A DNA stretch of 64,000 bases from Arbacia lixula (lineage: Eukaryota > Echinodermata > Echinoidea > Arbacioida > Arbaciidae): contig OZ022585.1 in assembly GCA_963669155.1 (NCBI GenBank), positions 8,043,744 to 8,107,743 on the forward strand, written 5' to 3'. Position numbers and translations under genes: made by a program. Of this stretch, positions 5,932 through 47,439 are shown piece after piece. Position 1 is the first letter of the stretch; every line of letters begins with the position of its first letter. The notes below the pieces were generated by a model that was not told where the DNA came from, searched no databases, and worked only from the letters and a program-made list of their open reading frames with translations.

Positions 5932-7791
5932 TCATACAATGGCACTGCCTGCGTTCACGGAGCTGTAAACGACCCCTGTGCTTCTATTGTTGCCATTTAT
6001 TGAGGGGTATTTCCCCCGGGGCGGCGTTGGCCTGCCGTCTTTGTTTGGGGTAGCCCCATTCGGCTGCTGCTGCTGGAGCTGCCGCTGCTGGTTGAAAGAG
6101 GTTTTTTGTCCCGGGGAGAATAGCGCGCATCCGCTGAACCACTTCTGCCAAGATTGCACAGTTTTGGAGCTCCAGATCCACATGCCGCTGGTGATCCCCA
6201 CCACGAGCAGCATGAAGATCTTGACCGACAGCACGGGCACGGAGGGTATGGAGAACCCCATGGGAGCGCAGGGGCCGGGGCCCGCATCCCACTGTCCCGT
6301 CAGTGACGTCACGGGTATGCAGGGTGCGAGCTCCGCCAACTTCCGCCACAGCTCCATGTTGGATCGCTGGTAGAAGTAACACGCGATCACGGCTGTGGCT
6401 GGCACCGTGTAGAGTACTGAAAAGATCCCTATCCGAACCATTAATCTCTCTAATTTGTCTATATTCGTGCCTCCATTTTTCATAACTTTCCGAATTCTGA
6501 ATAAGTAGAAAAATCCCGCAAAAATAAAAAGCGTGCCGATGACGAAGTAAATGACAAGCGGTATGAGAACGAAATAGGTGAGCGCATCAGGGTCATTGTT
6601 TCCTATGTAACACATCCCCGTGAGCTCGTCGCCGTCGAGACGTCGTTTCAGCAATGCGGCGATGGCCTTTACGGCCGGAAGTGCCCATGCCGCCACGTGG
6701 TAGTAGCTGCTATACGCCGCGATCGCCTCGTACCCCCACTTCATCCCCGCAGCCAGGAACCAGGTTAGCGTGAGGATCACCCACCAAATGGACGACGCCA
6801 TGAAGAAATAGTACTGCACCAGGAACACAATGGTGCAACAGGTGCTGTCCAACCCCTCCTGGATCAAGTACGGGACGCCCTCATCGGTGGTCTCACAGGC
6901 AATGAGCCGCGGGCCGACGAAGAGCCTGAAGATGTAGTTGATGGAGTAGATGTTGTAGCACATGGACAGAAATATGATGGGGCGCTCTGGGTAGCGGAAG
7001 CGAGCTCGGTCGATGAGAAATGTGAGGACGGTGATGGCGGTGCACACGAAACACAGGACAGCCCACACACCCATCCACAGCTCCGTGAACTCCTTGTCCG
7101 ACCGCTGGAAGTACACGTCGACGTCACAACGAGGTGCACACGACTTGGTCTGTGGAACGTAGACGAATTTCTGGGGGTTGGTGCAGATCGAATTGCTGGT
7201 CGAGTTCGCTGGGCGTTTTTGATCGCCCGATGTCGACGGCGCCGACTCATCCTCAGTTTGGACCCCAGGGTCACCATGATCGCTTCCAGGGTGGTAGGTC
7301 GGGACAGGGTCTTTGTTGTCGTGGGTATCCGGGGCGCCCATGCACAACCGATCCTTGCCGCGGTCGTTGCCGCGCGGTAACTTGTCGCAATTCATGCTCT
7401 CGGGCCAGCTGAAGCTGAAGCGCTTCATCACGGGCTCGCACTTCCGGCGCACCACCTCGCACATGCTGCGGCACGACGGGATGGGCACGTCGATCTGCTC
7501 CGAGCACATGGGCACGTACATGGAGCACAGGAACAGGCGGAGGTGCTCGGCGCACCCCACCACGACCAGCGGCCGGAACTCATGGATGCTGGGCGCCGCG
7601 TCACTCTGAGTCACGTGACCAAACAGGTTGGGCATCCGGGTCATGTTGTAGCCGATACCTTGACAGAATTCAATGGTCATGGGTTCGCAGTGGCCGTGCG
7701 TGTTGGCCTGCCGGACACCCATGGACCTACCCGTCCACCAACACGACACCAACACAAACACCTGCAAAAGGGATCGCATCCGCGTTGCCAT
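5932..7791 (-). CDS. fzd9/10: Frizzled Wnt receptor, Fz9/10 class, single exon
   Basis: Seven-pass Wnt receptor of the plasma membrane, 619 residues. A signal peptide (about 1-25) is followed by a Frizzled cysteine-rich domain with all ten cysteines (C35, C43, C80, C89, C96, C107, C111, C118, C135, C150). A Ser/Pro-rich linker leads to seven membrane segments from about 238 to 540. The Dishevelled-binding KTxxxW motif is present as KTVQSW at 543-548. A Gln/Pro-rich tail ends in SAIV. The SCAPRC linker, RYPERPIIFLSMCYN and the final membrane segment (VKIFMLLVVGITSGMWIW) resemble human FZD10 and FZD9 most. The CRD also shares features with Fz4, so Fz4 is the alternative. The start is chosen for its ACCATGG context and the signal peptide behind it. 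No intron interrupts the frame. It is transcribed away from XPO4. Confidence 0.95.
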   Translation of the reverse strand: MATRMRSLLQVFVLVSCWWTGRSMGVRQANTHGHCEPMTIEFCQGIGYNMTRMPNLFGHVTQSDAAPSIHEFRPLVVVGCAEHLRLFLCSMYVPMCSEQIDVPIPSCRSMCEVVRRKCEPVMKRFSFSWPESMNCDKLPRGNDRGKDRLCMGAPDTHDNKDPVPTYHPGSDHGDPGVQTEDESAPSTSGDQKRPANSTSNSICTNPQKFVYVPQTKSCAPRCDVDVYFQRSDKEFTELWMGVWAVLCFVCTAITVLTFLIDRARFRYPERPIIFLSMCYNIYSINYIFRLFVGPRLIACETTDEGVPYLIQEGLDSTCCTIVFLVQYYFFMASSIWWVILTLTWFLAAGMKWGYEAIAAYSSYYHVAAWALPAVKAIAALLKRRLDGDELTGMCYIGNNDPDALTYFVLIPLVIYFVIGTLFIFAGFFYLFRIRKVMKNGGTNIDKLERLMVRIGIFSVLYTVPATAVIACYFYQRSNMELWRKLAELAPCIPVTSLTGQWDAGPGPCAPMGFSIPSVPVLSVKIFMLLVVGITSGMWIWSSKTVQSWQKWFSGCALFSPGQKTSFNQQRQLQQQQPNGATPNKDGRPTPPRGKYPSINGNNRSTGVVYSSVNAGSAIV

Positions 7792-9060
7792 GGTAGCACA
7801 GTGGTATCCAACACGACGATGCCAATGGAAGGTACTTATTTGTCAGTCATTTCACGACAGTGACGGCACAAACTAAAATCGATGTATTTCAATTACAACG
7901 AAGAAATGTGACGTGTGTTATATCGCTTCTACGCAGTTTGCACCGAGCCGCACCTCCATGTTATGTTCCGTCCTCTCTGTCTCTCCCTCCCTAACTACCT
8001 CTCTCCTCCTCTCTCTCGTGAGAGAGATCCTAAATAGCTTCACCTCGAAATCCGTCCGACGCGGGGTATCACTTTACGTCTCGCTGATCCTATCCCACAC
8101 GTGGTCCTTGTTACGATCCTTTAGAGCGGCCAATCCTCCCTGTATCCCGACGAGGTCGCAGCATCCCTGCTGTAAAAAAAAAACCTGTACCCCTACCTAC
8201 ACGTCAAAGAAACCGGGTGTCAAATAGTTTCTAAAATCGCGTCGTACACAAATTTATATTTACCCTCCCTTTTAGCTTTCTGTCACTTGGATCAAACTCG
8301 AGAGCGGTGTGGTATACACACGTCTGTCGCGTCCACTTGCCTCGGCACACACTGGGTACTCTGGTTCTAAGAGCTGAATAGAGATGTCGGCCTTTATCCA
8401 ATAATAATCCGCTCAAGCATTGAAAACAAGGTTGTTGAAAAGCTGACGTATCAACAGCCGACGACAGTCCGGGACTCAATGAGATGTAAGCGATACTGTG
8501 CGAACAAGGACCGTTACCTCGCTAGTAAGTCGCGTCTCGCTCTGCTTGTGTGTACAATAATGTTCGGTGTAAGAATGCCGTGTAGACATGTGTAATAAGA
8601 TAGCCTCCTCAAAAAGTCAAATTATCAAAAGTCAAGTCACCTGGAATAAGTTTCACAATTCACGCAAAAGTACGTTACGGTATGCAAGAGTGTTGAGTAC
8701 ACACACACTTTATACACTATCGGTTATCACACGGCGTTCGACACGAGATGCTGCGACAAGAATCCCACACGACAAGAGATATTTTGTAGTCTGCACTGCA
8801 CAGCGAGGCATGGGACGGCAAGCAGCCGACTTATTCGCGAAGCACTATATGAAGGATGCCTATCGGTGGGGGATTCATGGTACCTCTGTTCGTAATAAAT
8901 AACAGCGACACAAACATACAATCCACCGCGGGGTTGCGAGCTTGCAGCGAAACACTGTAGCCAATAAAGTCTCCACCAATGAACGCGCTCGCGCCCCGCT
9001 CTCCCGGGTGGAATATTAACTCGCTCCGCTCTGTCGGGGTCGGCAGTGCCGGGCATTAGA
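7792..9060 (-). promoter_or_regulatory. Frizzled 5' flank / candidate promoter region
   Basis: No coding gene is supported. Pyrimidine tracts lie at 7970-8030. A GC- and CpG-rich block at about 8930-9060 carries a CCAAT word and could be a promoter for the minus-strand Frizzled gene. No TATA box is evident, and the assignment rests on position and composition only. Confidence 0.3.
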
Positions 9061-25300: not shown

Positions 25301-28300
25301 TTTTGCCACCACCCTTGGGGCAAGTCACGATGGTCCGAGGTATGGAGTGACACAAGCCCCAGGGGTGAGCCAGACTACCAAGCCATCGGGTGGTCTGTAA
25401 GGGCATGAATGATTGATGGGTACCCAAGGGCATAGTCTAGACTGGGGCCCAGGCCAGGGTGCACGTGCACCCCCCCCCCCCCCCCCCCCCGCGCCAAATA
25501 GGTACACCACTATGGGTTCCTTTTTCTATCGCATTGGTACTCAAGAATGGCTTCCTATACCCCCTTAAAATGCTAAAACCCTGGACCCCCGCCGTTGGTT
25601 TAATTTACTTTCAGATATTTTTAAAGAAAGTCATTCTCATGCCTGAGCATTGTGTTTCATGCTGAACTGGACAAAATATACCGCGGTTTATAACTGCGGC
25701 TCTTTCCCTTTCTTCCCTTTCCCTATGCCAATTCCTTTGAGTTGTTGTGTATACAATGATTTTTTTTGCATGTGGACATGGGACATGTAATGTTTCTTTT
25801 TGTTGATTTTTCCTTTGTTTAGGCCCCTCCTCACACAGTGAACCAGGAGCAGAGACAGGCAGCTGAGCACACCATCCTGGCCTTCCGCCGCGCCTCAAAC
25901 CCTCTCCAGGCATGCCAGTTCATTCTAGGTAATTTCCAGTTGTTATGCCTCATCCTTTTTCCTTTTTCCCCCTTCCCCTTATCGCCGTGTACCATTTAGG
26001 AAAGTGTTGAATTGACATGACTTCAAGGTTCAGTTCAATCTATTTATGCAGGCAACAAATGTATTGATGGTGAAAGTAGAAACCACGGTATAATGTTTAC
26101 AATACTAAATCAGATTGAGCTTAGCATGTGGTAAAAAGAATGTGATCCCCACAGTAAGACTATAATCGCTCTAATGTGAAACATATAAACAAAGGATGTT
26201 TTTCCTCCTTGTAAATATTAGTCCACAAAGGTTGTATTTAGCTGCATGTTGCCCTGCAGTGCAAAAAAGACCCCCCTGTGAATATGGCATTTTGATGCAG
26301 AGGGTAGTCCATTATTAATCTAAAGCTTCAAAAGAACTCCCCTGAACATCGCAAAATCATTGTGTTCCCCTTGGTGGTTACAAGTCTCAAAAGACCCACA
26401 TTATGTACCTTGCGTGTGTGTCTTTCTACATTACTCATTCTGACAGAGCACAGCAACGTGGACTATATCCTGTTCCAGGCGGCGTCAACGGTCAAGGAGG
26501 CGGTGATCCGTGACTGGGCCATGCTTGACCACTCGCAGGTGGACAGTGTCCGGAGCTTCCTGCTCAAATACGTCACACATAAACCTGGGTATGTAGAAGA
26601 GACTGTCTAGAGGAATCAGGAGCCTGCCATGTAGTTTACTAGCATGGTTAGGGTTATGATTAGGCTTGTGGTTAAAAACAGGGTAGCCCTGATGCAGGCC
26701 CCCAAAAATAATGGGAGAATGGGACGAAAAATTCTGAACTGTATACGCCATATATTTAGCGAGTCTAATTTTTCGTGAATCAGGACTTGTCGACAAGTTC
26801 CGGGGGGTTAAATTCACAAACACAGAGTACTAGTGCTGGTAGTACATGTGCGCATGCACGTTGTATTCATATTTTTGCAAGTTGTTAAATTCGCGAATAG
26901 CACCTGACCTGCGAAATTCGCAAAAATAAACCCCCCGCAAAATATATGGCGTATACTGTAGTTTACTAGCATGGTTAGGGGTTATAACAATTTTAGGGTT
27001 GTGGAGAAAGTCTGGGTAGCCGTGTTGCAGATCAAATAAAAACAGAAAACATACGAAAAAACTGTATCATAACTTCCATCATATTATTAGAGAAGGAAAC
27101 TGACTTTGAGCGGAATTTCATTGATCTATAAAATTTTGAGTAGGATTTGGGTGTGTCAAGCATCATCCAAAATATTCGCATTACCTGTAGCCGAGAGACC
27201 GATACAGCATACCGCGGTTCTTCACTCCGAACGGTCTGCACACAGGTCAGTGATTGTCCATGGTAAACATCCAACCAGTGTGTGCAATGCGAGAACCTGC
27301 TTGCTGCATTACAAAAGTACACAAGGATAGTTTTTCACTCTCCTTAAAAACGTTTGTGAAGCTATGACTGTGAAATGTCGTACATGTCATCCTTAAGATG
27401 TACTTCTAATCCATGCATACTTACATGACTTTTGTTAAAAGGCTCTCCTGCTTTTAAGTTCATTTAAAGGGAAGTTCAACTTTGTCCTTAAAGCCCCTGT
27501 CCCACTCTTGCGTGCAAGCGTTGCATGTGATTGCGAGGGACAATTTTTGCAGATGGCCCGCACGTGACAGTACTTAGCGGGTATCTCGCCCGTAGGTGCC
27601 CGGAGGTACGCGCGCAAGTTCCATTTACCCGCAGCAAGTTTTAAGCATTTTCAAAACTTGCTCCAGGTGAGTTGCGGGGAATTGGCTGCAGAGGTCCACG
27701 CAGAACACCAGTAGGAGGCCCTTAGCAGCCGCAAGTCACAGGCAGTTAACTCGCATGAAGTGCGGAGCATAATACGGGTGTTTTACTGGCAAGGAACAGT
27801 GTCGATACTGCCAGCATCCTTGTAGCTGGTCATTTCTGCGGGTGTGGAGCGAGGCAAATACAAGCAAATTACAGGTATTTTTAGGGTCAGTTAATACCTT
27901 TCTGCTGGTTAGTTGAGGGTCGGCTGCAGCCAAGGTGATTAAGTTCTGAGAGGCAGTGCTCATATGTCGCCCGTAACTAATACGGATCAGTTTTGAAGCT
28001 CTCACGCGCCACCAACGCGCCTGACACGCAGGTCACACGGAATACACGCAAGTAGAACATATTTAGCACGGTCCAGCAGGTAAGAAGCACGCAAACCTTG
28101 TCAAAGTTCCTGTCAGCCCGCAGAAATTACCCTGCGTGCTGGAAAATTGTTCCTCGTAAGTCATATGCAATGCTTGCAAGCAATAGTGGGACAGGGGCTT
28201 AAGCTGAATTAGATCAAAGCAGGCGAATCAGAGAAACAGGTTGGCAAATGTTCTTCTGAAGATCAGACATATCAGAAATTTAGCTTGCTCTATAAATCAA

Positions 28301-31300
28301 ACCAATGGAGTTGCCTGTGAAGGTTCATGATCAAAATTTAGTGCCAGTAGTAATGAAAATCATAAATTTCTTAATAAAGTATGTCTGATTTTTCTCAAAA
28401 GTCCATTAGAGGTCAAGAGTCATTGAAAATTGCTATGGAATACAGAATACTGCAAACAACTTAAATTTTATTCTTATATGTCTTCTATTTCTACATGTTG
28501 GTTGCCTAGGTTACCAAGCTATGTGCGTGAACAGATTCTCCAGGCGGTGGCAGTGATCTTCAAGCGAGGGACGGTGGAGAGCAAGGAGAAGGGGAGAGAG
28601 GGGCTGTTCTCGGACATCTCGCACCTGATTGGGAGTGGTGACCCAACTTTGGTGAGGATGATGAGGATGATGGTTGTCATGACAATGGCTATGGTGATGG
28701 TGGTTATGATGATGGTGTGGAAGCCATGTGGGAGTGGTGAGTTTCAGCAGTAATAGGGATAATGATGATGAAGGACAAGGAGACTGAGAGAGAGAGAGGG
28801 GCTCTTCTCAGACCTTTCACTTCTCATCGCCGGTGGAGACGTAAGCTTGGTAAAGAGGATGGGGATGATGGTCGTCATGACAATGTCTATGGTAATGGTG
28901 ATTATGACGGTGATAATTGTGTGGAGGTGGTGTGGGAAGAGGAGATGCCAACAATGTCAATGATAATGAGATGATGGAGAGCAAGGAGACGGAGAGAGAA
29001 GCCCTGTGCTCATCAAAGGATGATGGGGGTAATGGTCATCACGACAATGGCTATGATGACGGTGGTTATGATGATTTTGATGATGGTATGGAGGTGGTGT
29101 GGTAGTGGTAGATGCCAACAATATCAATGATAATGATAATTGAGAGCAAGGAAACGGGGAAGAGAGGGGCTGTTCTAGGACGTAATAACTAGTAGAGACC
29201 AAAATTTGGTAAGGAGGATGAGGAGGATAGGTGATAATTTCACAAGTGATGATTGTGTTCATGGTGTGGAGGTGGTGTTGTGAGTGGTAGATGGCAACGA
29301 TGTCAACAATAATGCTGATGGTCATGACAATGGCTATGGTAATGTTGGGTATGATAATAGGAATGATCATAATGACATGAAGATAATACTATTCCTGGTG
29401 CGACCGCCCTTAATAGACAAAAGTTTGGCTTGTGCTTGTCGCTTGTCGCTCTCATCCCAGGTCTAGGAAGATATATTCTTGTTGCATAAAACTTACCATT
29501 GATGGTAACTTAGCTATCAATGGCAACTTCTATGGCAACCTTGAATTTGTTTGGCTGTTGAGCAATGTTACAATGGTAGTTACCATTGATAATGGAGTTA
29601 CTACCAATGGAAACTTTTATGCAACGGGGCCATGGTCTAGTAGATTCTTCATGAAAGTCAAGGTAATAATCAAGTGATTTGTGTGGAGCTTCATACTTTA
29701 GGAGCACTAAATACAAATCTATTATTGAAAAATTACATGTATTATCAATCTGTCTAACTTTTGTTCTCTTTCTGTCTACTTGTCATTGTTGTTGCATTGG
29801 TTTCAATGTCATTTCTCATTCCATATAGAATATTCACCTAATCTCATTTTGTGAATGTCTCTATCTTCCCTTACTCTCTACAGCAAATGATTGCTTGCTC
29901 CATGCTGACGGCATTGCTCAATGAGTACTCGGGATCGACGAGGACCAGCGACATCGGGCTAAGCTGGGAGTTCCACATCCAGTGCAAGCGCATATTTGAG
30001 GTCAGTGAAGGATGTCACAAACGCTTGCGATAACCGGTGACCAATCATAGCGATGAATCGGTTGATAAGTTGTTATGTAGGCTGCTAATGTTTAACAGTA
30101 ATTTGAAGCAAGGATTTTACATGAGTGTCATTGTTCTGATTGATGCAAAGTCATATGTGGAAAAATGTTTGACATTGAAAATAAAATGTAAATTGGCAAA
30201 ATAGAAAGGGGTAAGATTTTTTGTTCTTCCTAATCCATAATCCATTGTTTCCCAGAAAAAATTGATGTCACAATTGTTTGTCATCGTTTGTGGCATATTT
30301 ACAACATATTTACAACATAACTACAACACTTTTGCTGGTGTTGAAGGGTTTTGTGAAATCCTCCAAAATGATTCATGGCAGTCGCAATGCATCTATGGCC
30401 AGCAAAGGGTTCTGCGATGCATCGCAAACAATTGACCACTGGTCATTCTCTTCATTTCTATCATCCTCCATCAGCTACAGTACAGTCCCATGAAACATCA
30501 CTCACTCTCTGCAAATGACTACACAGGGCTCAGAGAAGTTTGGCCTCCACAGTGCAAAACGGAACCCTCGTGGAAAACCAAAGAGCCCACGTAAACATCG
30601 GATTTTCCTTGTAGGTTGTTAAAATGGGGTGTTTCTTTCATGACACAAGGCCCCACAGTTTAAAAGTTGCCCTTGCAATTGGTCTTTTTTTCTCTCTCTC
30701 TCTCTGCACACTTTAGTCTAAAGAGACTAACAGACAAGGGGGCTATTCAGGGAGCTTGATCCTATCAAGGGCACTAACATTTGATTGATGGAGAGTGCAT
30801 AGACTTACGACTACACAGCTTGTCCGTTGGGGAAGAGACTAAAGAAGTCCATTTTCTGTATGGGTTATGACATGTCATTTGAGCTTTACGCTAGTCCCAA
30901 TTTATTATCAATCTTTTATCGCTTTGATTTGTTTGTGTCCTTGTGATATAGAGCAGACACCATTTCAAGGATTATACGATTTCATGTTGACTTTGCTGCG
31001 TCCTTTGGATTGATAGGTGCATGACCTGAAGAAAGTCTTCATGTTTGCTGTCCAAGTGCTCCACCAGCTGATGGCCACGGAGGGCCCCCTCAACGGCGAG
31101 TCTGGGAAAGTCTTCAACCGATTCCTCATGATCTGTGAGCAGGTGCTCAGCTGGGAATTCCTACTCGTTCGACATATCCTTTCATTTAGAGATAATAATA
31201 ATATGGGTATTTATGCACACTATACACCAGAAAGACCATAGCGCTTACAATCTCCAAAAAATACAATTTAAATTAAAAAGGAATAGAAAAAGTTTAATGA

Positions 31301-34300
31301 GAAAAAAGGTATGTTTTTTAGCGTTCCTAAATATTTTCTATTAAGGAACATTCTCTTCTATGAATTGGGAGACTATTCCATGTATTTGGAGCTGATAAAC
31401 TAGTGATAGCGCGCTTCTCTGAATTTTCAAGAGGTATTTATCTGACATTGAATGAAGTGCTCGTGCAGGTACATATAAGGAAACCATGTCTTGGAGATGG
31501 ACAGGAGCAGTGTGAGAGAATCTTATAAAGAGGATCTGAGAAATGTACAAGTTTGAAGCAAATACAGAGCTGCCAACCGTTACGAAAAATTCGTATTTGT
31601 TACGAAAATCGGAAGAGAATACGAAAATACGAAAGCGCATCATAAAAGTACGAATTCACGGCATAAAAAATAAATTATAAAAAAGGACAAAAGTTGCATC
31701 TTAGCTAGCGATAATGTGGCATGAAAGGCACACATCACCAATATAACCATGTTGTTGACCACTATTATAATCATATATTTGTAAAGTAAAATGTTATGGT
31801 TAGCATTAATAAACTACCCCTAAGCATCGTAGAATAATTCAGCCAATCACGTAGCTCTTTCTGTAACACCTGATCGCTGACTGCATTCACGACACCACCC
31901 ATTCCATTGGCAATACATTCAGCACACACTAATTTGTCCCTCACAAGTAACATAGATACTTGTACCCTTGTAAACTAATGAACCAGGCCAGACTTTCCAG
32001 GCTAAAAGGTGGAGAAATTCACCTCAAATTACTGCAAGATAGGAAGAAACTGAAACCTGGAATATATGTGTATATCACTAGAATAACATTTATAGTGCAT
32101 TAAAATCGTAGTCAGGTTGTTTTAATAACATTTTCATAACATTTGGAAAAAGAAAAAACCCCGAAAATTTATGATTTTTGAACCCCTACCGCTAGCCGAG
32201 TTTCCCCCAGAACTCTGGGGAGGCAAGCTGTTCAAATTCTGCACACTGGTCCCTCACAACATAGATATTCGTACCCTTTTGAAATAATGAACTAGGCCAG
32301 GCAAAGATGAAGAGCTGAAAAAATGGCGGAATCCGCTTCAAATCACTGCAAAATAGGAAGAAGCTGAGACCTGGAATGTAAGTGTATGACACTACAATAT
32401 CATTTATGGTGCATTTTAATGATATTCAGGTTGCTTTTAGAACATTCTCATATCATTTGGAAAAAGAAAAAAAGATCGAAAATTTATGATTTTGTAACCC
32501 CTACCACTAGCTAAGTTTTCCCCCAGAACTCTGGGGAAGGAAAGCTAGACTTAGGCTCAGTGTGCACTGTGGTGCACTGTACATGTACTAGCAGTAGTGC
32601 TACACACTGCTAGCTGCCGATCAGCTGTCAGTGGCAGTTGGCCATTGAGTAGAAGTAAAGGGATAATATTTGTTTAGTCATAGGCTTAGACTTGCTACCT
32701 TCATCATTAAAAATACGAATTTTGAAGGCAAAATACGAATTTTGGAGGTGCAGAATATGAATTTTGACTTTCAAAGGTTGGCAGCCCTGCAAATATGTGA
32801 TGAGATAAATGAGGTAAAAACTGCTCCTGTGCAATGGGTGTGTTTTTTCACTGCTACTGATACATAAATCCCACAAAGCATCAGTTTGTCTCGCGCACAA
32901 ACAATACATTATTTTTTTTTCTTCAAATTCTCCATTATAAGCACAGGGTTTTATGGGGGAAAAAACTCACTGAAATTATTTTCTAAGAAGGGGACATATG
33001 CACATCTAAGACAAAGGACTTAATAAACCTCAAATGTGTGGCTTTAAGAGAGAAATACAACACTGATGCAAGGCTAATTCATATTATATAAAATGCTATA
33101 AACAACAGGGGTTTTACGAGAGAAAGTACTTAAATTCCATTCTGTGTATAAAGATCATCTTCATGAATGAACAATAGATTAAGTTGATTTGAATTGAATT
33201 CAAAATGTGTGGATGGTTGATTGCAACGTTGTTTTTCCTTGACTGCCGACATCCACCGGCCAAGCGGCGAATAGGGTCCTTCCAGCCAGTGGACACACCC
33301 CCTCTGAAGCCTGATGGTAAATGGAGAGACCCCTTCTTGGACAACGGCCTGCTAGAGCTGTTCTTCAAGGTAATGTGGAATATTCTGGGTCAATTAATCT
33401 AGTCAAAATTCAGACATCTATTCATTGCGCATTAATGCCATTATGTTTCCATGCTTTGGCACATTTTGGTTTGCTGCATGATTTACATTCCTAACCACAA
33501 GAGCTGGATTTTGGAGCTGTTGAAGCTTGGCGGGGCTAGTTTTTCAATATAAGACTGAATCTTCTTCAGGGCAATCAAAATGCAGACACATTTTAGTGGG
33601 GTATGACTGCTATTACATTTTGTTTTGATGCGCAATATAAAATCAATGATAAAAATATCACCATTAGTAATGAATGGTTAGAAGGACGTGCATACAATGT
33701 GAATACGTAAGAAACATGGTCTATTGTGCCAATTTGCAATATGAAACAAATGTGATATAAATACAGCATATAAACACAAGTATCTTCTACAAGTATATCA
33801 TGATTCATGGTGGTGATGATGTGCATTTATTTTCATGCCTCCACAAGGAAGTTGCCTGTCCTGTCTGACTGTTGATCTCGTTTATGCGATAACTGAAAAA
33901 ATTAAAAAACTACATCGAACTCAATACAATGATAATTGCAGGGCAATGAACTGATTAGCTTTTGGGTCATGAAGGTCAAAGGTTAGAGGTTACAGGTCAA
34001 AGTCAAATCTCCAAAAATTTCCCTTTTTACATGATGACTTGAGATATATTAAACCAAAAACCATCAAAAACAATTCAATGATAATATATGACAGGATAAT
34101 TCAACGATTCAATTTTTTTCTATCGTTTTAATTCTCCTTGGCAGATCCATGCGAGGATCCGGTTGAATCCAGACTTTTGCCATCACGCCATGCAGTGCCT
34201 CTCTCAGCTAGCTACTCTAGATGGCCCCGTCTTCTCCAACGAAAAGGCCCGGTCAGACTACCTGGCCCACTTCACACGCTGCCTTCTGCAAGTACTCAAT

Positions 34301-35852
34301 GGGTAAGCTGGAGTGGATTAAAATGATATATAACTGCACTTAAAGGGCATATACTGTACTGGCAAGACAAAAACACCTTCAAATGTGAACCTGAGCAATC
34401 TGCTTGCCAATGGTCTAAAATCCATGTATTGCCCATTTTAGAAACTTGCTTAAAGTTAGTTGTCCTAAAATTAGCCACATTTAGAGTAATTAGTGATTAA
34501 ATCACAAATCCTCAAATTGTTCGGGCCGAACATTTCAAGGATTTGTGATTTAATCATTAATTACTTCAAATGAGGACCAGATGAGTTCAAATAACTTTCA
34601 GCAAGTTTCTAAAATTGACAATACATGAATTTAAGACCATTGGCAAGAAGATTGCTCACGATCACCTTTTGAAGGCCTTTTTGTCTTGCCATTACAGTAT
34701 ATACCCTTTAACCTTCTTATTATGACCATTGATTGTCACGTATCAGTCATAACACAATTAATTGCCTATGGGACTGATAGAGTTAATCTCTCAGCTGGCC
34801 ACCATTAATGTGCTGGTCTTCACCAATGGCAAGGCCCGGTCAGACTAGCTGGCCCACTTCCCACGCTGCCTTCCGCAAGTACTCAATGGGTAAGATGGAG
34901 TGGTTGCTACAGCCCCCCCCCCCCCCCTTCCCTCCTCTGATTATGTGATAGCACTTTAATGATATCTGAGCTGGTCACTCCAAAAGTGCGTCTTCATTAG
35001 CCCGATGTGGCGAAATAGCCAGCTAGTTCAGATCAGGATAGCCTAGCCAGATCATGAAATAGCAAGCTATTTGCGTATTCCTTAGCCAGATTAGGCGAAA
35101 TAGCTAGCTATTTGGTCGAGAAAATTTCCCAAGAAAGCTTGGGCTAGATGGAGGTAGCTCAAGCTAGAACCGGAGCGTCTTCATTAGCCTGAAAATTTTT
35201 CGATCCCGGCATGCAACAGTGCACACGAGGCATTGTTTACGTAATAGGTTTTTATACGTGCATGAAGGGCGAGCTCACAACTGAAGCCATGGGATCATGG
35301 CCTATTCCCGTTGCTCACTGCTTATGTGCAAACATCGCGATAATTTATGCATCCCAAGTTTTAAGCTTACGTATCCCAAGTTTCAAGCTAATGAAGACGT
35401 GTTTGCAACTTCAGGCTAGTTCCCTGGATCCTCAAACTAGCTCGCTATTTCGTCTGATCAGGCAAATGAAGACGACTTCAAAAGGCCAGGTCCTCTCCAA
35501 CGACAAGGCCTGTATAGACAGTGTGGCCCACTTCACACACTGCCTTCTGCTACAGTTAATATCAACATTCTTCAGAGGGTGGCATGATTTTTTTTCTTTA
35601 AATGCAAATTAAACATCTTTACAAGTGCATCGTTTTCCAAACATTTTATTTTCTGAAACCCCTTGTATGTGCTGTAGGTCTGAGGTGCAGGATCACGAGG
35701 CCCTTGGCTTTGCAAACATCATCAACCACTTGATCACCCGCTGCCCCATGGAGACGGTTGCCGGGTTACCCCCAGGCCTGCTGGCCTCGTTGGTGGACGC
35801 CCTCACCTCGTTCACCTGTCTGTGCGGCAGGCAAGCTGCGCTGGAGGAGGCG
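16281..35852 (+). CDS. XPO4: Exportin-4, N-terminal part (nine exons, span)
   Basis: Importin-beta family nuclear transport receptor. In vertebrates it exports eIF5A and SMAD3 and imports SOX2/SRY in a RanGTP-dependent way. Coding segments are 16281-16328, 25823-25928, 26447-26588, 28510-28651, 29884-30000, 31017-31173, 33257-33369, 34145-34302 and 35678-35852. They join without frame conflict into 386 codons, about the first third of the roughly 1150-residue family protein. Human-like blocks run in order: QLEEA...NQEQRQAAEHTILAF, YVREQILQAVAVIFKRG, MIACSMLTALLNEYS, QVLSWEF, LKPDGKW, SDYLAHF and GRQAALEE. These form the N-terminal HEAT-repeat, Ran-binding part. The ATG has A at -3 and G at +4. 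Intron phases are 0,1,2,0,0,1,0,2,0. Later exons were not found in this window. Confidence 0.93.
17030..17130 (+). promoter_or_regulatory. TATA-like box in a CpG-rich block, candidate internal promoter
   Basis: TATATATAG at 17,041-17,049 is followed by GC-rich sequence with many CpGs, in the middle of a block (about 16.8-17.5 kb) unlike the rest of intron 1. A frame at 17,283-17,531 ends just after a GTGAGA donor-like site but has no recognisable homology. This could be an alternative promoter or part of an unrecognised mobile element. Confidence 0.25.
19457..22606. repeat. Dispersed composite motif GTTTCGGAYGTTAC + GTTAAC
   Basis: The 14-base word GTTTCGGACGTTAC, or its GGATGTTAC variant, occurs at 19457-19470(+), 19807-19820(+), 21454-21467(-), 21829-21842(-), 22005-22018(+), 22023-22036(+), 22197-22210(+) and 22409-22422(-). 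Seven of the eight have GTTAAC 4-10 bases away on the GTTAC side; the eighth, at 22005, is tandem with 22023 and shares its GTTAAC. GTTAAC continues as GGAAA at 22041, 22217 and 22396 and, inverted, at 22596-22606. The flanking DNA is AT-rich and does not align between copies, so this is not a plain tandem repeat. Confidence 0.85.
24068..24285. mobile_element. Foldback family H, left arm
   Basis: The segment from GGCATAGGGAAAGGG through TATATTTTGTCCAGTTCAGC to GGCATGAG is the inverse of the segment at 25,628-25,745. A compact copy with both arms adjacent lies at 37.64-37.85 kb, which shows that these are two halves of one hairpin element. Confidence 0.7.
24430..24789 (+). promoter_or_regulatory. 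CpG-rich promoter-like block
   Basis: About 250-350 bp of GC- and CpG-rich DNA containing GCGCGCGCGAGCGCG-type sequence and several inverted repeats. It ends immediately before the ATGGCGGCATCC start of the zinc-finger-like frame. Composition and position suggest a promoter for that frame; there is no transcript evidence here. Confidence 0.4.
24790..25110 (+). pseudogene. Zinc-finger-like frame of a mobile element, frameshifted
   Basis: An ATG frame reads MAASKPKFVDRDGG...WNWSWCDRVFLEGT...GEAWCLWCNDGIR, then shifts. A 7-base direct repeat (AAGGATT/AAGGTAT-like) around 25,001-25,013 displaces the frame. Beyond it the sense continues as YGNGGLKTLRQHATGDKHKK up to about 25,110. Joined conceptually, this is a CxxC...HxxxxxH zinc-binding module of BED/U1-like type, often found at the start of transposon-derived proteins. 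Function is unknown. The 7-base repeat could also be part of a very short intron or a sequencing artefact. It lies between the two arms of family H inside XPO4 intron 1, on the same strand. Confidence 0.5.
25628..25790. mobile_element. Foldback family H, right arm
   Basis: Inverse of 24,173-24,285 (TCATGC...GCTGAACTGGACAAAATATA...TTTCCCTATGCC). It ends about 30 bp before XPO4 exon 2, so the polypyrimidine tract of that exon's acceptor lies right next to transposon DNA. Confidence 0.7.
25823..25928 (+). CDS. XPO4: XPO4 exon 2 (residues 17-52)
   Basis: TTTGTTTAG|GCC acceptor and CTAG|GTAATT donor, 106 bp, leaving one base (phase 1). It encodes APPHTVNQEQRQAAEHTI followed by LAFRRASNPLQACQFIL, matching the first HEAT helices of exportin-4. 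Confidence 0.93.
25929..26446 (+). other. XPO4 intron 2
   Basis: 518 bp, GT-AG. No further feature is seen. Confidence 0.85.
26447..26588 (+). CDS. XPO4: XPO4 exon 3 (residues 52-99)
   Basis: TGACAG|AG acceptor completes a Glu codon. The exon encodes EHSNVDYILFQAASTVKEAV...FLLKYVTHKPG and ends CCTGG|GTATGT in phase 2. Human XPO4 has ETSKVDYVLFQAATAIMEAV in this place. Confidence 0.95.
26740..26958. mobile_element. Inverted-repeat element with GTATACGCCATATAT ends
   Basis: Ends are GTATACGCCATATAT and ATATATGGCGTATAC, about 219 bp apart, with GCGAATTCGC-like internal words. The sequence TAGTTTACTAGCATGGTTAG occurs on both sides (about 26,634 and 26,960), giving a flanking direct repeat of about 75 bp with divergence. 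Confidence 0.65.
27488..28202. mobile_element. TTAA-flanked inverted-repeat element, family F
   Basis: TTAA followed by AGCCCCTGTCCCACT, and the inverse AGTGGGACAGGGGCTTAA at the other end, 715 bp overall. The interior holds many GCAAGT/ACTTGC words and no open frame of note. The TTAA target and lack of coding fit a piggyBac-type non-autonomous element. Confidence 0.8.
28510..28651 (+). CDS. XPO4: XPO4 exon 4 (residues 99-146)
   Basis: TTGCCTAG|G acceptor completes a Gly codon. The exon encodes LPSYVREQILQAVAVIFKRG...EGLFSDISHLIGSGDPTL and ends TTG|GTGAGG, phase 0. Human has KYVREQILLAVAVIVKRG at this point. The last 75 bases are echoed three times downstream. Confidence 0.95.
28774..29340 (+). 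pseudogene. Three decayed tandem copies of the XPO4 exon 4 end
   Basis: Copies start near 28,774, 28,976 and 29,142; each resembles the exon from GAGAGCAAGGAG onward and then the following intron (GATGATGG...GTCATGACAATGG). Copy 2 keeps the exon frame as EGLFSDLSLLIAGGDVSL (28,796-28,849) and a GTAAAG donor at 28,850. The third unit has lost the exon end. The last has stops (GACGTAATAACTAG) but retains a GTAAGG donor. None has an evident acceptor. Confidence 0.8.
29479..29631. mobile_element. Small foldback element, family C copy 2
   Basis: GTTGCATAAAACTTACCAT at the left and the inverse ending TTTATGCAACGGGGCC at the right, about 153 bp, in intron 4. Confidence 0.75.
29884..30000 (+). CDS. 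XPO4: XPO4 exon 5 (residues 147-185)
   Basis: CTCTACAG|CAA to GAG|GTCAGT, exactly 39 codons, phase 0 on both sides. It encodes QMIACSMLTALLNEYSG, then a serine/threonine turn, then GLSWEFHIQCKRIFE. Human XPO4 reads ACSILTALLSEF...GLSMEFHGNCKRVF. Confidence 0.95.
30001..31016 (+). other. XPO4 intron 5
   Basis: 1.0 kb, GT-AG. A short self-complementary stretch around 30,010-30,440 (ATCGCAAAC / GTTTGTCATCG type words) is the only structure noted. Confidence 0.7.
31017..31173 (+). CDS. XPO4: XPO4 exon 6 (residues 186-238), AT-type donor
   Basis: GATAG|GTG acceptor. Encodes VHDLKKVFMFAVQVLHQL...FNRFLMICEQVLSWEFLLVR, like human IFMLTVEVLQEF...QVLSWNFLPPN. No usable GT donor follows. The exon ends CGAC|ATATCCTTT, a perfect U12 AT-AC donor. 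Reading on past it gives only 16 unrelated codons before a stop. Confidence 0.9.
31174..33256 (+). other. XPO4 intron 6, AT-AC U12-type
   Basis: Donor ATATCCTTT (31,174-31,182), branch-site match TTCCTTGAC (33,235-33,243) and acceptor CCAC (AC at 33,255-33,256), 14 bases after the branch adenosine. An alternative AC at 33,249-33,250 is in the same frame and would add two residues. The preferred acceptor gives a gapless alignment to human XPO4 from FL...W. The intron carries a 1.2-kb transposon. Confidence 0.85.
31565..32789. mobile_element. 1.2-kb inverted-repeat element with internal duplication
   Basis: Ends CAGAGCTGCCAACC and GGTTGGCAGCCCTG, with a CAAATA direct repeat immediately outside both ends (31,559-31,564 and 32,790-32,795). 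Near the ends lie repeated TACGAAAATTCGTA-like words. Inside are two copies, period about 316 bp, of a segment ending CCCCCAGAACTCTGGGGA. No transposase is visible. Confidence 0.8.
33257..33369 (+). CDS. XPO4: XPO4 exon 7 (residues 238-275)
   Basis: Starts after the AC acceptor, completing the split codon, and encodes AKRRIGSFQPVDTPPLKPDG, then KWRDPFLDNGLLELFFK, ending AAG|GTAATG, phase 0. Human XPO4 has HYIAMFE...LLKPTESWRETLLDSRVMELFF. If the upstream AC is used the exon begins at 33,251. Confidence 0.88.
33370..34144 (+). other. XPO4 intron 7
   Basis: 775 bp, GT-AG. It includes an AGGTCA-rich stretch at about 33,966-34,006. No other feature. Confidence 0.7.
33966..34006 (+). promoter_or_regulatory. 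Cluster of AGGTCA-like half-sites
   Basis: GGGTCA, AGGTCA, AGGTTA, AGGTTA, AGGTCA and AAGTCA occur within 41 bp in one orientation. These resemble nuclear-receptor half-sites, though similar strings are also common in invertebrate repeats. Function is speculative. Confidence 0.25.
34145..34302 (+). CDS. XPO4: XPO4 exon 8 (residues 276-328)
   Basis: CTTGGCAG|ATC to AATGG|GTAAGC, phase 0 to 2. It encodes IHARIRLNPDFCHHAMQCLS, then QLATLDGPVFSNEKARSDYL, then AHFTRCLLQVLNG. Human XPO4 has SLQCLAQLASLHGPIFPDE...VDYLAHFIEGLLNTING. Confidence 0.95.
34340..34711. mobile_element. Foldback family B copy 1 (TTAA-flanked)
   Basis: A near-complete hairpin about 370 bp long. Ends are TTAAAGGGCATATACTGTAC and its inverse, and the centre is GTTCGGGCCGAAC. 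No coding. Six relatives lie at 41.5, 42.1, 51.0, 59.6, 60.3 and 61.1 kb. Confidence 0.9.
34779..34889 (+). pseudogene. Decayed copy 2 of XPO4 exon 8
   Basis: It follows exon 8 from SQLAT to LNG and keeps the AATGG|GTAAGA donor plus 10 bases of downstream intron (ATGGAGTGG). It carries a TAG stop at 34,846-34,848 in place of the Tyr codon of SDYLAHF. The 5' half of the exon and the acceptor are absent, so it is a pseudoexon. Confidence 0.9.
34965..35560 (+). pseudogene. Decayed copy 3 of XPO4 exon 8, split by a family A element
   Basis: The left piece (34,965-34,985) reads SELVTPK-like. The right piece from 35,475 reads GQVLSNDKACIDSVAHFTHC followed by LLLQL. The two are separated by the 489-bp family A element, and the ACTYCAAAA flank is duplicated on both sides. 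The donor is lost. Confidence 0.8.
34986..35474. mobile_element. Foldback family A copy 1
   Basis: Begins GTGCGTCTTCATTAGCC and ends with the inverse (GGCAAATGAAGACG). The body is rich in AGCTAGCTATTT words. The flanking 9-bp repeat ACTCCAAAA/ACTTCAAAA is the size made by Mutator-like transposases. It is inserted inside a pseudoexon. Confidence 0.8.
35678..35852 (+). CDS. XPO4: XPO4 exon 9 (residues 328-386)
   Basis: GCTGTAG|G acceptor completes a Gly codon; the exon ends GAGGCG|GTGAGT, phase 0. It encodes SEVQDHEALGFANIINHLIT...LVDALTSFTCLCGRQAALEEA. Human has DSEAVGISSIISNLIT...FVNCLTHLTCSFGRSAALEE. The next human segment (DKDDMVYMEAYDKLLESW) was searched for by eye downstream and not found. 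Confidence 0.95.
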
Positions 35853-42521: not shown

Positions 42522-44372
42522 TTCTTGAAAACATTTTGTGATCCAAATCAACATTTTTTAAAGCAAGTTTGGGGATATAACCTTGACAGGAGGGCATTGA
42601 CCTATATAAAATACAGCTCCATGTGAATAATTAGAAACAATTGAACTTCTTGCATTTATATGAGGCAGCAGTCATGTTGGGATCAAATGAAGTCACCGAC
42701 CACGTTCCACTCACAAAATGACCCATGGACAGAAGTGACTATAACATGTAAACTCTGACCATTTCTTGTTTGATTGTGGGGCAACTGTTAATAGTTCTCT
42801 GACCCCAGCTAATAGGTCAAGCATCTGACCTTCACTGACACAGGGTGTTTTGACTGTTGAAGTCATCTGGGGAAGGGTCACTCCCCTACTTCTAAAAAAA
42901 GAGGTCATCAAAAGGAAAGTTGTTTTTTTCCCCAATATTTTAAAGAGGCAAATAAATAAGAACCGCCTACATATACATGTAGATATAGTGAGCTGGGAAG
43001 TGTATCCCATTTGCAGACAAAAATAAAAATTTTCTAAGCATTACATGAGCTACAAGAACAACATAGAGATTAAGATTGTGAAATATGCAGCTTCATGACA
43101 AGAATTGAAATAATGTGTGGAAATTGTTGTTTATCTGCCAAACCCTTTAACACTGGGAGACATTTCATCAGGTGCATGGGAGGCGTTTCCCTGAAAGTTG
43201 TAAATACTGAGTGACTTGAAGCTTGGCACCCAGGCCAATGTACGAGTATAACCTGTTAAGAGGCCATTTACAGTTCTGCAAAATAATTTATATCAAACCT
43301 ATACAATCACAGTAGAACTTCTAAATTGGCACTGTAGCACTAAAGAAGAATTCAACAGCAAAAGTGTTCATTAGTTAATTAATTTGATACTGATGAAACA
43401 AGAAATGATTGCTTGCTTTTACTAACACACAATGGTTGGAGCTTAGTCCCACTACCTACATGTACACGTAGTGGTGCCAGATTCTGAGCAAGGAGAGAAA
43501 TAAATTTGGCTCAAATGTAAAAGTGTTGAAAAGCTTTTGAAAACAAACAATTTCAAGAAATATAGTGTAGACAACCAAATTCTTGAGAACATTAGATGAC
43601 CACAATAACAGCATACATAATCAAGTTTGTGAAATATGAAAATGAAAAAGCAAAGTGGAATTCAAATGATGTGTGAAAAACCTACATCATGCCCATTAGT
43701 TGGGGGGGGGGGCTACTTTTAAAATGAGATGTCCTGAAAAAAAGACGGAAGCATCCTTGCCATGCATTGTACCTTATGAGCAAACAAACATTTTCACAAG
43801 GGCACTTCACTTGTTTTAGGAGGGCTCTTTATGTTAAATGGGGGCTATCGCCCTGAGCCCCCATGTAATTTCTTTTCACTGGCACACACATGATGTCGAT
43901 AGGTGATGTAAATGGGATGGCTGTTCTGAGTTTATGGCCAGGCTAAATGTCCGCTAAGGCTAGAGATGAAGAATTTAATGTGCCGAGATGTCCTCTCAAT
44001 TAATACGACAGATGTGGTTCCCCCGATGGCTCGTTCAGCGAAGGCCAGATTAGGTATCTTAACTTAGTCTCAGGAACAACTATCTTAAAGGCCCTCAGAC
44101 ACGCTATGCACTACCCTGCTAGTTGTTACTTGTACCTTAAAGAAATTGCCCAACATCTTGCAAAGTGAATAACATTACAAGTTGCCTTTTTCTTGAATAT
44201 GTTTTAATATTAATTTGTTTATTTCTCAATTCATGTGCCCTTTAAAAGGGAAAGGAACAATTTTTTACTTTTCTTTTTCCTCTTTTATGTGCAAAAGTAG
44301 GGAAAAATTTCATTTTGCCGACATATCTGTAGAAAATTCAAGGCAATCCACTAATGCAGTCCATCAAAAATG

Positions 44373-44721: not shown

Positions 44722-46788
44722 TTATACAAGTGTTTGCTTGTTTCCCCTTTCACCTTCTTCCCCCGCGATATTCTCATAAATGTTGTCGCCATCTTCGAAC
44801 GGAGCGTCTGAGAAGAAGGTGGTGTTACCTCCCTGCATGTCGTGGATTCCCCCATCCACAAACACCAGCTTGGCCTGCTTGACCTCATTAGGGGGGTGGG
44901 GCAGTGTCCTGACATAGCACCCCTCGGTGACGTCGGGCTGGTTGGGGGAGAGGCCTGTGGGCGTGGCTAGGTGACAGGGTGCCCTCTGCTGGCGAGGGTT
45001 GTGACCCCACGTCTGGTTCATGCAGCAGGCATGGGAGCGCGGGTGCTGGTAGTGCGGCTCGAGGGAGTCCTTGCGCGTCGGAGGCTGCGGCTTAGGGGAG
45101 GGCGGCACGGACAGCATCGTCTGGGACTCGTAGCAGGCGGGCCGCGCCCCTGGCCGCACCTTCTGGTAGTGGCCCAGCTCCGGATGGTAGAAATTGCTGA
45201 CGGCACGCGGCATGCTCGGCGTTTGACAGCTGTCCATTCCGTAGTCAGACGACACGATTGTTTCCGCGGTCGTTAAGACGGGCGGGGAGTCTGGAGTGTG
45301 GGGCGGGGCGTGGTTGGCCGAGTGGACCACGACATGAAGCGTAGCCTGCACCTGCTGTCGCTGCGGGTCCACCCCGCCTCTCTCGCTCTCGGGCAGCTCG
45401 TAGACGTTAAGCGTGTCGCGAGAAGTCCGCAAAGTACTGCATCCCTGTGAGTGCATGTAGTGGAACTCAGATATCTGGCTGCTGGCTTTCGTGGTGGGGG
45501 CGGCAGCAGTGTGATGGCAGTGCGCGTCGTGTTTCTTCTCCTTGCGCTTCTTGCAGCCGCACATGACTGGGGCGTAGATAGCGAGGAGGATCAGGAGAAA
45601 CAGAGACATCAATACGCAGATAATCAGTAGCCAGATCGGCCACAAACGCCACTTTCCACGATGCGTGTGAATGAATATATCTGGTTGCTCGGTTGTATAT
45701 GGTTGCGCTGGAGGGCCCGTCGGATTAGCAAGCACGTTACTATTCAAACTAACGATAGTGCTACTGTTTGACACAGGCCACCCATTATTGGTCAATTCAC
45801 ACACAATTTCCATGTCCAACGCGCTGTAAAGGATGGTCAGGTCTGTGATGCGCAGGGTACGGCCGTTATTTTCCACTATAAATCCAAACATTCCTGGTGT
45901 GATGGGATCGTCGTTGACGTACCACGTGAAGTTGTTGACGTCCCGACTGAAGTTGGTGCTCGGGCCACACGTGAAGCTCAGCTCCACCATGTCCTGCGAC
46001 CGCGGCTCACCTCCAACAAGTGGCAGCGTCCCACGCTCAAACTCCTGCCAGACTTTATTGATGTTCGAATCAATCTGAACCGATGGGGGCGCTATAACAG
46101 TCACAGGCGAGACATTGCAGCTGCGCTCACCCTCCAACGCTTCGCCGCTAGCTTTGCAGTAATAGTGCGATAAATTCTCGTCAAGAGAGACTATAGCGCG
46201 GTGAGTCGCGACCGTTTCGTAATCCCATAACATATCCGAGGGCAAGTTAACGTTCCCGTTGAACCATTGGAGCCGAACGGCGGGCGAACCGCCCCGTGAC
46301 CGGCACACCAACTCCACCTCATCCCCCGGCATGAGCAGTCCATGCAGCTTGTGGATCTCACATTGCGGATATTCATCCGGTGGCGCCACGAGCACGATAA
46401 CCCTGGCCTGATACGACGAGAACCGATGCACCGGTCCGTAACACGCACATTCATACTGACCTCCGTCCCACGCGGTAGCGTTGCTGATCTGCAGTGTGAA
46501 ATCACCCTTGGATGCGTTCCCAACGACAGCATAACGACTGCTGAATTCGGAAGGAATTCCGCGCATGAGCTCATCATTCATCGAGATGTACGTCTGCATG
46601 TCAAGACGGTACCAGTACATGTTGCATGTAATGGACCTTCTCAGAATGCAAGGCAAACGCACTGTGTCGCCTTCTCGAATGGTTTGATCACCGGGTTCTT
46701 CCATCATGTACTCATGCTGAGCTAGTGCTCCACTTTGTAACCATAAAACTGCTACGCAGCACACAAAAGTAACTCGCGAGATCTCCAT
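44722..46788 (-). CDS. Single-exon immunoglobulin-domain membrane protein (nephrin/Kirre-like)
   Basis: 688 residues. A signal peptide (about 1-23) precedes three Ig-like domains with cysteine pairs C47-C114, C162-C211 and C274-C330, each with the core Trp (W59, W175, W289). There are seven potential N-glycosylation sites, including N91, N205 and N286. One membrane helix spans about 384-407, followed by the basic stop-transfer KKRKEKK. The roughly 275-residue cytoplasmic tail is Pro/Ser-rich, has a YENI tyrosine site near the C-terminus (GRB2-SH2-like YxN pattern) and ends QTLV, a class I PDZ-binding motif. Kirrel/Neph proteins end similarly. It is probably a cell-adhesion or recognition receptor; which IgSF subfamily is uncertain. 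No intron interrupts it, unusual for a multi-Ig gene. It lies antisense to XPO4 and may be nested in intron 9. Confidence 0.88.
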   Translation of the reverse strand: MEISRVTFVCCVAVLWLQSGALAQHEYMMEEPGDQTIREGDTVRLPCILRRSITCNMYWYRLDMQTYISMNDELMRGIPSEFSSRYAVVGNASKGDFTLQISNATAWDGGQYECACYGPVHRFSSYQARVIVLVAPPDEYPQCEIHKLHGLLMPGDEVELVCRSRGGSPAVRLQWFNGNVNLPSDMLWDYETVATHRAIVSLDENLSHYYCKASGEALEGERSCNVSPVTVIAPPSVQIDSNINKVWQEFERGTLPLVGGEPRSQDMVELSFTCGPSTNFSRDVNNFTWYVNDDPITPGMFGFIVENNGRTLRITDLTILYSALDMEIVCELTNNGWPVSNSSTIVSLNSNVLANPTGPPAQPYTTEQPDIFIHTHRGKWRLWPIWLLIICVLMSLFLLILLAIYAPVMCGCKKRKEKKHDAHCHHTAAAPTTKASSQISEFHYMHSQGCSTLRTSRDTLNVYELPESERGGVDPQRQQVQATLHVVVHSANHAPPHTPDSPPVLTTAETIVSSDYGMDSCQTPSMPRAVSNFYHPELGHYQKVRPGARPACYESQTMLSVPPSPKPQPPTRKDSLEPHYQHPRSHACCMNQTWGHNPRQQRAPCHLATPTGLSPNQPDVTEGCYVRTLPHPPNEVKQAKLVFVDGGIHDMQGGNTTFFSDAPFEDGDNIYENIAGEEGERGNKQTLV

Positions 46789-47439
46789 GTTGTCAAAATA
46801 TCTAACTTAAAAATGTACTGAGACAGTTGAAAGATCACCCAAATTTGCACAAATTGATCCCTCCAATAGGTTTCAAGAAATATTGAGATTTCCGCATGTC
46901 CAAGAATTACAGCTGATAGATCAAAGTTTGCAGAATTCCATCAGTAAGTTCCAAGAAAAGTTGATGAATTCAGAAATGCACATCAATCACTGCAGTATCT
47001 TACATGTAGACGATCCAAGAAATAAGCAATGCAGTTGAAAGGTTCACAAAAGTTTGCGCAATCTGATTCTTTCACTAAGTTCCAAGTATTCAGATGATGA
47101 TGTATTCAGAAGTGCATCAATACATCAATCAATGTAGCATTGTGGTTCACACACACATGTTCCTAAATGAATGGCTGCATGGAAATAAAAGTCAGTTTCT
47201 GTGGGTTACTACAGCAGGCCCACAGGGGTAGGGGGTCTTGCTCTTCTTATCTCCCCCTGCCTCTCCCCACCACAGCTATAAACACTGTCCCTTCCTGATC
47301 AGTAATCCCTCCTCACATAAACCCAGCTGGCCCCCCCACAAGGGATGGGAGGAAGTGGGCTCTGCAATGTGCACACAGGAGGGAGGGCTGGCTGGCTGCT
47401 GGATGCAATGTCAACACAAGATCAAGATTGGCCCACCAA

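Follow-up and report, generated by a model that had tools for sequence, protein, structure and literature searches.

How exons 6 and 7 of a plus-strand gene, which is probably the exportin-4 (XPO4) gene of an echinoderm, are spliced together is the question raised by this locus. A preliminary description had proposed that the two exons are separated by an AT-AC intron of the minor spliceosome. Judging from splice signals, reading frame, homology and the small nuclear RNA (snRNA) genes of the same genome, we put the probability that 31174-33256 is a phase-1, U12-class AT-AC intron of exportin-4 at about 95%. The analysis covered the window, i.e. the whole stretch of 64,000 nt (C10:8043744-8107743), and the genome to which it belongs (606,990,701 bases in 590 contigs). 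Positions are those of the window unless the contig is given.

The exportin-4 gene and its surroundings

A presumed human XPO4 sequence, checked against mouse 5DLQ from VFQEED to HLAAPDG, was used as the tblastn query. In the window, eight exons on the plus strand (25823-35852) matched human residues 23-393. With the AT-AC join the eight-exon reading is in frame and free of stops, and the readings obtained with three rival joins were likewise stop-free. For human residues 1-22 no placed match was found in a laxer scan (residues 1-30 and 385-1150, with six matches listed per piece), and the number 'exon 6' is therefore that of the preliminary description. A truncated gene, as might be suspected from window matches that cover only residues 23-393, was ruled out, because human residues from 387 to the last were matched at C10:8123378-8136473, 16-29 kb past the end of the window. 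A candidate for exon 10 at 43783 (KHFHKG) was rejected owing to stops close by.

GT-AG pairs were obtained for 16 of the 18 other XPO4 junctions (13 through a GT-AG scan, three through direct joins), with donor scores of 4.5-12.0 on an approximate matrix. The remaining two, 11-12 and 18-19, were left unassigned because the homology matches are incomplete there. A TAG acceptor lies immediately 5' of exon 6. The peptide encoded by exons 6 and 7 matched no Pfam family, and the window itself gave no Rfam or ARAGORN match. A processed XPO4 copy, which would have proved the junction, was sought in the same genome with a 401-nt query; for its exonic portion nothing but the query locus was returned.

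The 3' part of exon 8 and the start of its intron recur in tandem at 34787-34903, in a decayed copy (85% over 117 nt) that carries an in-frame stop; near this copy, the inverted stretch 34650-34711 matches 34340-34400 at 87%. The approximately 43.8-kb intron between exons 9 and 10 harbors, antisense to XPO4, a 694-aa open frame (44725-46806, minus strand) for a protein that has an immunoglobulin domain and a hydrophobic segment resembling, by eye, a membrane span. Also on the minus strand, a single open frame of 636 codons (5932-7842) encodes a Frizzled receptor, for which the best solved match was Frizzled-4.

Splice signals between exons 6 and 7

In the consensus sequences printed in PMC2831892, AT-AC U12-type introns have the donor ATATCCTT at positions +1 to +8, and the U12-type branch reads TCCTTAAC. 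As described earlier, exon 6 (...QVLSWEFLLVR) ends with ...CGTTCGAC at 31173; the sequence directly after this position is ATATCCTTTCATTT, so that the donor ATATCCTTT adjoins the exon (Table 1). The branch match and the two possible AC acceptors of the preliminary description were also recovered, with TTCCTTGAC at 33235-33243 and ACs ending at 33250 and 33256. TTCCTTGAC departs from the published branch consensus in having G instead of its first A; in general, a G at that branch position is a common variant (TTCCTTRAY). The intron ends in TTTTTCCTTGACTGCCGACATCCAC, which is followed by exon 7. After the branch comes TGCCGACATCCAC, and no distinct polypyrimidine tract precedes the AC end, as is also stated for U12-type introns in a passage of PMC3584512. 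The AT-AC join was claimed to restore the frame; it does so with either AC acceptor. Were the intron retained, a stop would be placed in frame at 31239.

Table 1. Positions in the window of exons 6 and 7, the predicted splice signals of the intron between them and the repeats inside it.
Feature	Position	Strand	Remarks
XPO4 exon 6 (VHDLKK...WEFLLVR)	31017..31173	+	Phase 1, with one base of the final codon in this exon; matches mouse exportin-4 5DLQ
Predicted AT-AC U12-type intron	31174..33256	+	2,083 nt with the preferred acceptor; signals, frame, homology
Predicted U12-type 5' splice site ATATCCTTT	31174..31182	+	Exact match to donor consensus ATATCCTT
Dispersed repeat, (AAT)n at its 5' end	31191..31527	+	Follows the first 17 nt of the intron; contains GT 31207, the rival donor
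Putative hAT-like non-autonomous DNA element	31565..32789	+	Terminal inverted repeats of 17 nt (88% complementary) and a direct duplication between them
Predicted U12-type branch site TTCCTTGAC	33235..33243	+	Branch A 33242; one A-to-G difference from TCCTTAAC
Alternative in-frame AC acceptor	33249..33250	+	Exon 7 from 33251, adds HP; 8 nt past branch A
Preferred AC acceptor	33255..33256	+	Exon 7 from 33257; intron end 14 nt past branch A
XPO4 exon 7 (RPAKRRIGSFQPVDTPPLKPDGKW...LELFFK)	33257..33369	+	GTAATG donor directly 3'

The optimum distance from the branch to the 3' splice site is given as 11-13 nt in passages of PMC3584512 and PMC6717393, and for this reason the second AC is preferred: its distance of 14 nt (8 nt for the first AC) is just beyond that optimum, depending on counting. 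Very probably, exon 7 thus starts at 33257. The same U12-class intron could end at the first AC, which is present and in frame, but at only 8 nt past the branch A such an ending would fall short of the 11-13 nt optimum, and it would make the loop two residues longer than the presumed human one; we regard it as quite unlikely. It is unlikely, too, that both ACs, which are six bases apart, are used and give two exportin-4 forms differing by His-Pro. This difference would fall in a loop that the mouse construct used for crystallization does not contain.

Both U12-type motifs were compared with chance expectation. The donor ATATCCTTT occurs three times on the two strands of the window (1.13 expected), and the branch-plus-AC pattern TTCCTTRAY..AC twice in the window (1.84 expected); since these counts are near chance, neither motif is meaningful alone. 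The probability that both signals fall at the required places (spans of 30 and 55 nt) is about 2e-7 when computed after the fact, and multiplied by the approximately 20 introns of XPO4 it is still below 1e-5.

Ordinary GT-AG joins and the loop at the junction

For exons ending within 31140-31240 and starting within 33180-33329, all frame-keeping, stop-free GT-AG, GC-AG and AT-AC joins were tabulated (n=49), the splice matrices used being approximations. The earlier statement that there is no workable GT donor goes too far, as GTs at 31207 and 31167 allow joins that keep the frame, albeit weak ones. The best in-frame GT-AG pair that keeps QVLSWEFL has a donor score of 1.4 on the approximate matrix, so that the intron does not classify as major-class by this measure.

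Were the intron of the ordinary major class, that pair would extend exon 6 to 31206, adding HILSFRDNNNM, and start exon 7 at 33290. The frame is kept, and the acceptor score of 5.9 is inside the range of the other introns. Moreover, the gapped tblastn match of exon 6 to the human XPO4 query runs past the AT-AC donor to 31205 (LVRHILS-FRDNNNM against presumed human LGRHYIAMFESSQNV), which, taken alone, favours this longer exon 6. The 31206/33290 join also bears on an argument of the preliminary description, namely that with the AT-AC join the spacing between FL and the conserved Trp is the same as in human XPO4. The equal length was confirmed, but it is no independent proof: the spacing cannot alone exclude an ordinary intron, because the 31206/33290 join gives an identical length. 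Against this join stands its donor score, which is under those of all 16 other donors scored (4.5-12.0; approximate matrix). Its GT at 31207 belongs to a dispersed repeat, 16 nt in from the edge, the NNN codons being those of the (AAT)n end of the repeat, and both U12 signals would have to be a coincidence of about 2e-7.

The two joins were further separated by the loop that they encode. In ungapped comparison with the presumed human loop residues, the AT-AC loop scored +7, a value reached by 0.7% of shuffles, whereas the 31206/33290 loop scored -18, which 90% of shuffles reached. Gapped global alignment gave 160 for the AT-AC join, 158 for the 31206/33290 join and 164 for an unrelated AT-AC join that lacks U12 signals; since the 14 best joins listed all fall between 152 and 164, this score was rejected as a discriminator. 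The solved mouse chain 5DLQ lacks these 20 loop residues. A passage of PMC4912631 describes two poorly conserved insertions that were deleted for the crystallization of exportin-4, and the XPO4 loop is probably one of these. On the evidence of donor, repeat, loop and U12 signals, the 31206/33290 join is very improbable.

Two other GT donors that keep the frame would shorten exon 6. Donor GTTCGA at 31167, joined to acceptor 33265 with the loss of VRPAK, scored -2.3 and the acceptor -0.3. A donor at 31143 scored 4.6, and its join to 33286 ranks first in summed score among the GT-AG joins listed, but its use would cost the exon the conserved VLSWEFL and lower the alignment score to 85-110. We consider it extremely improbable that a GT-AG intron begins at either of them. 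An extra exon between exons 6 and 7, which would have spoken against the preliminary description, was not detected: with the presumed human query no match at E up to 1 was wholly intronic. The sole intronic match in the laxer scan (residues 1-30 and 385-1150; six matches listed per piece) was a chance match on the minus strand.

A scan of XPO4 confined to GT-AG picked the 31206/33290 join, which we consider false. Gene prediction that relies on GT-AG ends could make the same choice and thereby give the protein a wrong loop.

Minor-spliceosome RNAs, related introns and repeats

Rfam model searches of the same genome returned, over the curated cut-offs, at least 20 matches to U6atac (best 137.7 bits), one to U4atac (98.6 bits), three to U11 (best 116.9 bits) and one to U12 (118.2 bits). 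Alignments of two U6atac matches, the U4atac, one U11 and the U12 were examined. In each of these searches none of 14 unspecified control genomes matched, which is a weak control. For an echinoderm, the starfish Asterias rubens, a passage of PMC10639083 gives a minor-intron density comparable to that of vertebrates.

Intron positions +4 to +12 (TCCTTTCAT) can pair over all 9 nt, by Watson-Crick rules, with ATGAAAGGA, which is situated close to the 5' end of U6atac in the same genome, and positions +5 to +9 (CCTTT) complement U11 over 5 nt. At the branch, TTTTCCTT complements AAGGAAAA of U12 over 8 nt, and the pairing can be continued by hand through a G-U pair and, after a bulged A, two more pairs. 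The U6atac pairing box AAAGGAGAGAAGG is kept in five of the eight copies fetched out of at least 20. In the other three of these copies the donor-pairing box is changed, and some of the U6atac matches are therefore probably pseudogene copies.

Taken together, donor, branch, acceptor, frame, ungapped loop homology and the full snRNA set agree and argue for the U12-type AT-AC reading. In the general order of minor splicing (U11, then U6atac, U12), U11 and then U6atac would pair with the donor ATATCCTTTCAT, and U12 would pair with TTTTCCTTGACT, bulging out A33242. The minor spliceosome would then join 31173 to 33257, which yields ...WEFLLVR-PAKRRIGSFQ.... The splicing itself and the choice of acceptor are predictions, whereas the splice signals, the frame, the homology, the snRNA genes and their capacity to pair with the intron were found directly in the sequence.

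With animal U12-type AT-AC introns the XPO4 intron shares the donor ATATCCTT, a branch near TCCTTAAC close to the AC end, its occurrence as one such intron among GT-AG introns and a host genome with U11, U12, U4atac and U6atac. The G in the branch and the branch-acceptor distance of 14 nt are small deviations, and the XPO4 intron is largely repeat-like, but there is no difference of kind. The intron represents a known class well but without surprise; with it a probable echinoderm exportin gene gains a well-supported minor-class intron, while knowledge of minor splicing is unchanged. Major-spliceosome AT-AC introns have the same terminal dinucleotides as the XPO4 intron; they are not known to carry the extended donor or the branch site of the U12 type. 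That AT-AC introns of the major spliceosome exist is stated in a passage of PMC6717393. No relevant literature on a minor or U12-type intron in XPO4 was found by a search not reaching supplementary tables, where intron lists sit, and 'exportin' is absent from the main text of the minor-intron papers PMC6717393, PMC7367187, PMC10639083 and PMC2831892. The XPO4 intron or a human counterpart may well be contained already in published minor-intron lists.

The two repeats occupy 1,562 of the 2,083 nt of the intron, which is thus about 75% repeat-like; neither repeat reaches into the 17 nt at the start of the intron or into its 3' end. Presumably the repeats were inserted later, and the U12 signals would have been retained in these first 17 nt and in the branch-site stretch at the end; the XPO4 intron illustrates how U12 signals can survive where repeats occupy most of an intron. 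The dispersed repeat has at least 40 further matches in the same genome. Its boundaries were taken from seven copies, with the end at 31527 seen in one copy only and the others stopping at 31401-31509. At the site of the rival GT donor, four of these seven aligned copies read exactly GGTATTTATG and three carry a one-base variant. The second element (31565-32789) is a putative hAT-like mobile element, a class suggested by its termini and structure alone; within it, 31936-32546 consists of two direct copies of approximately 300 nt each that are 80% alike.
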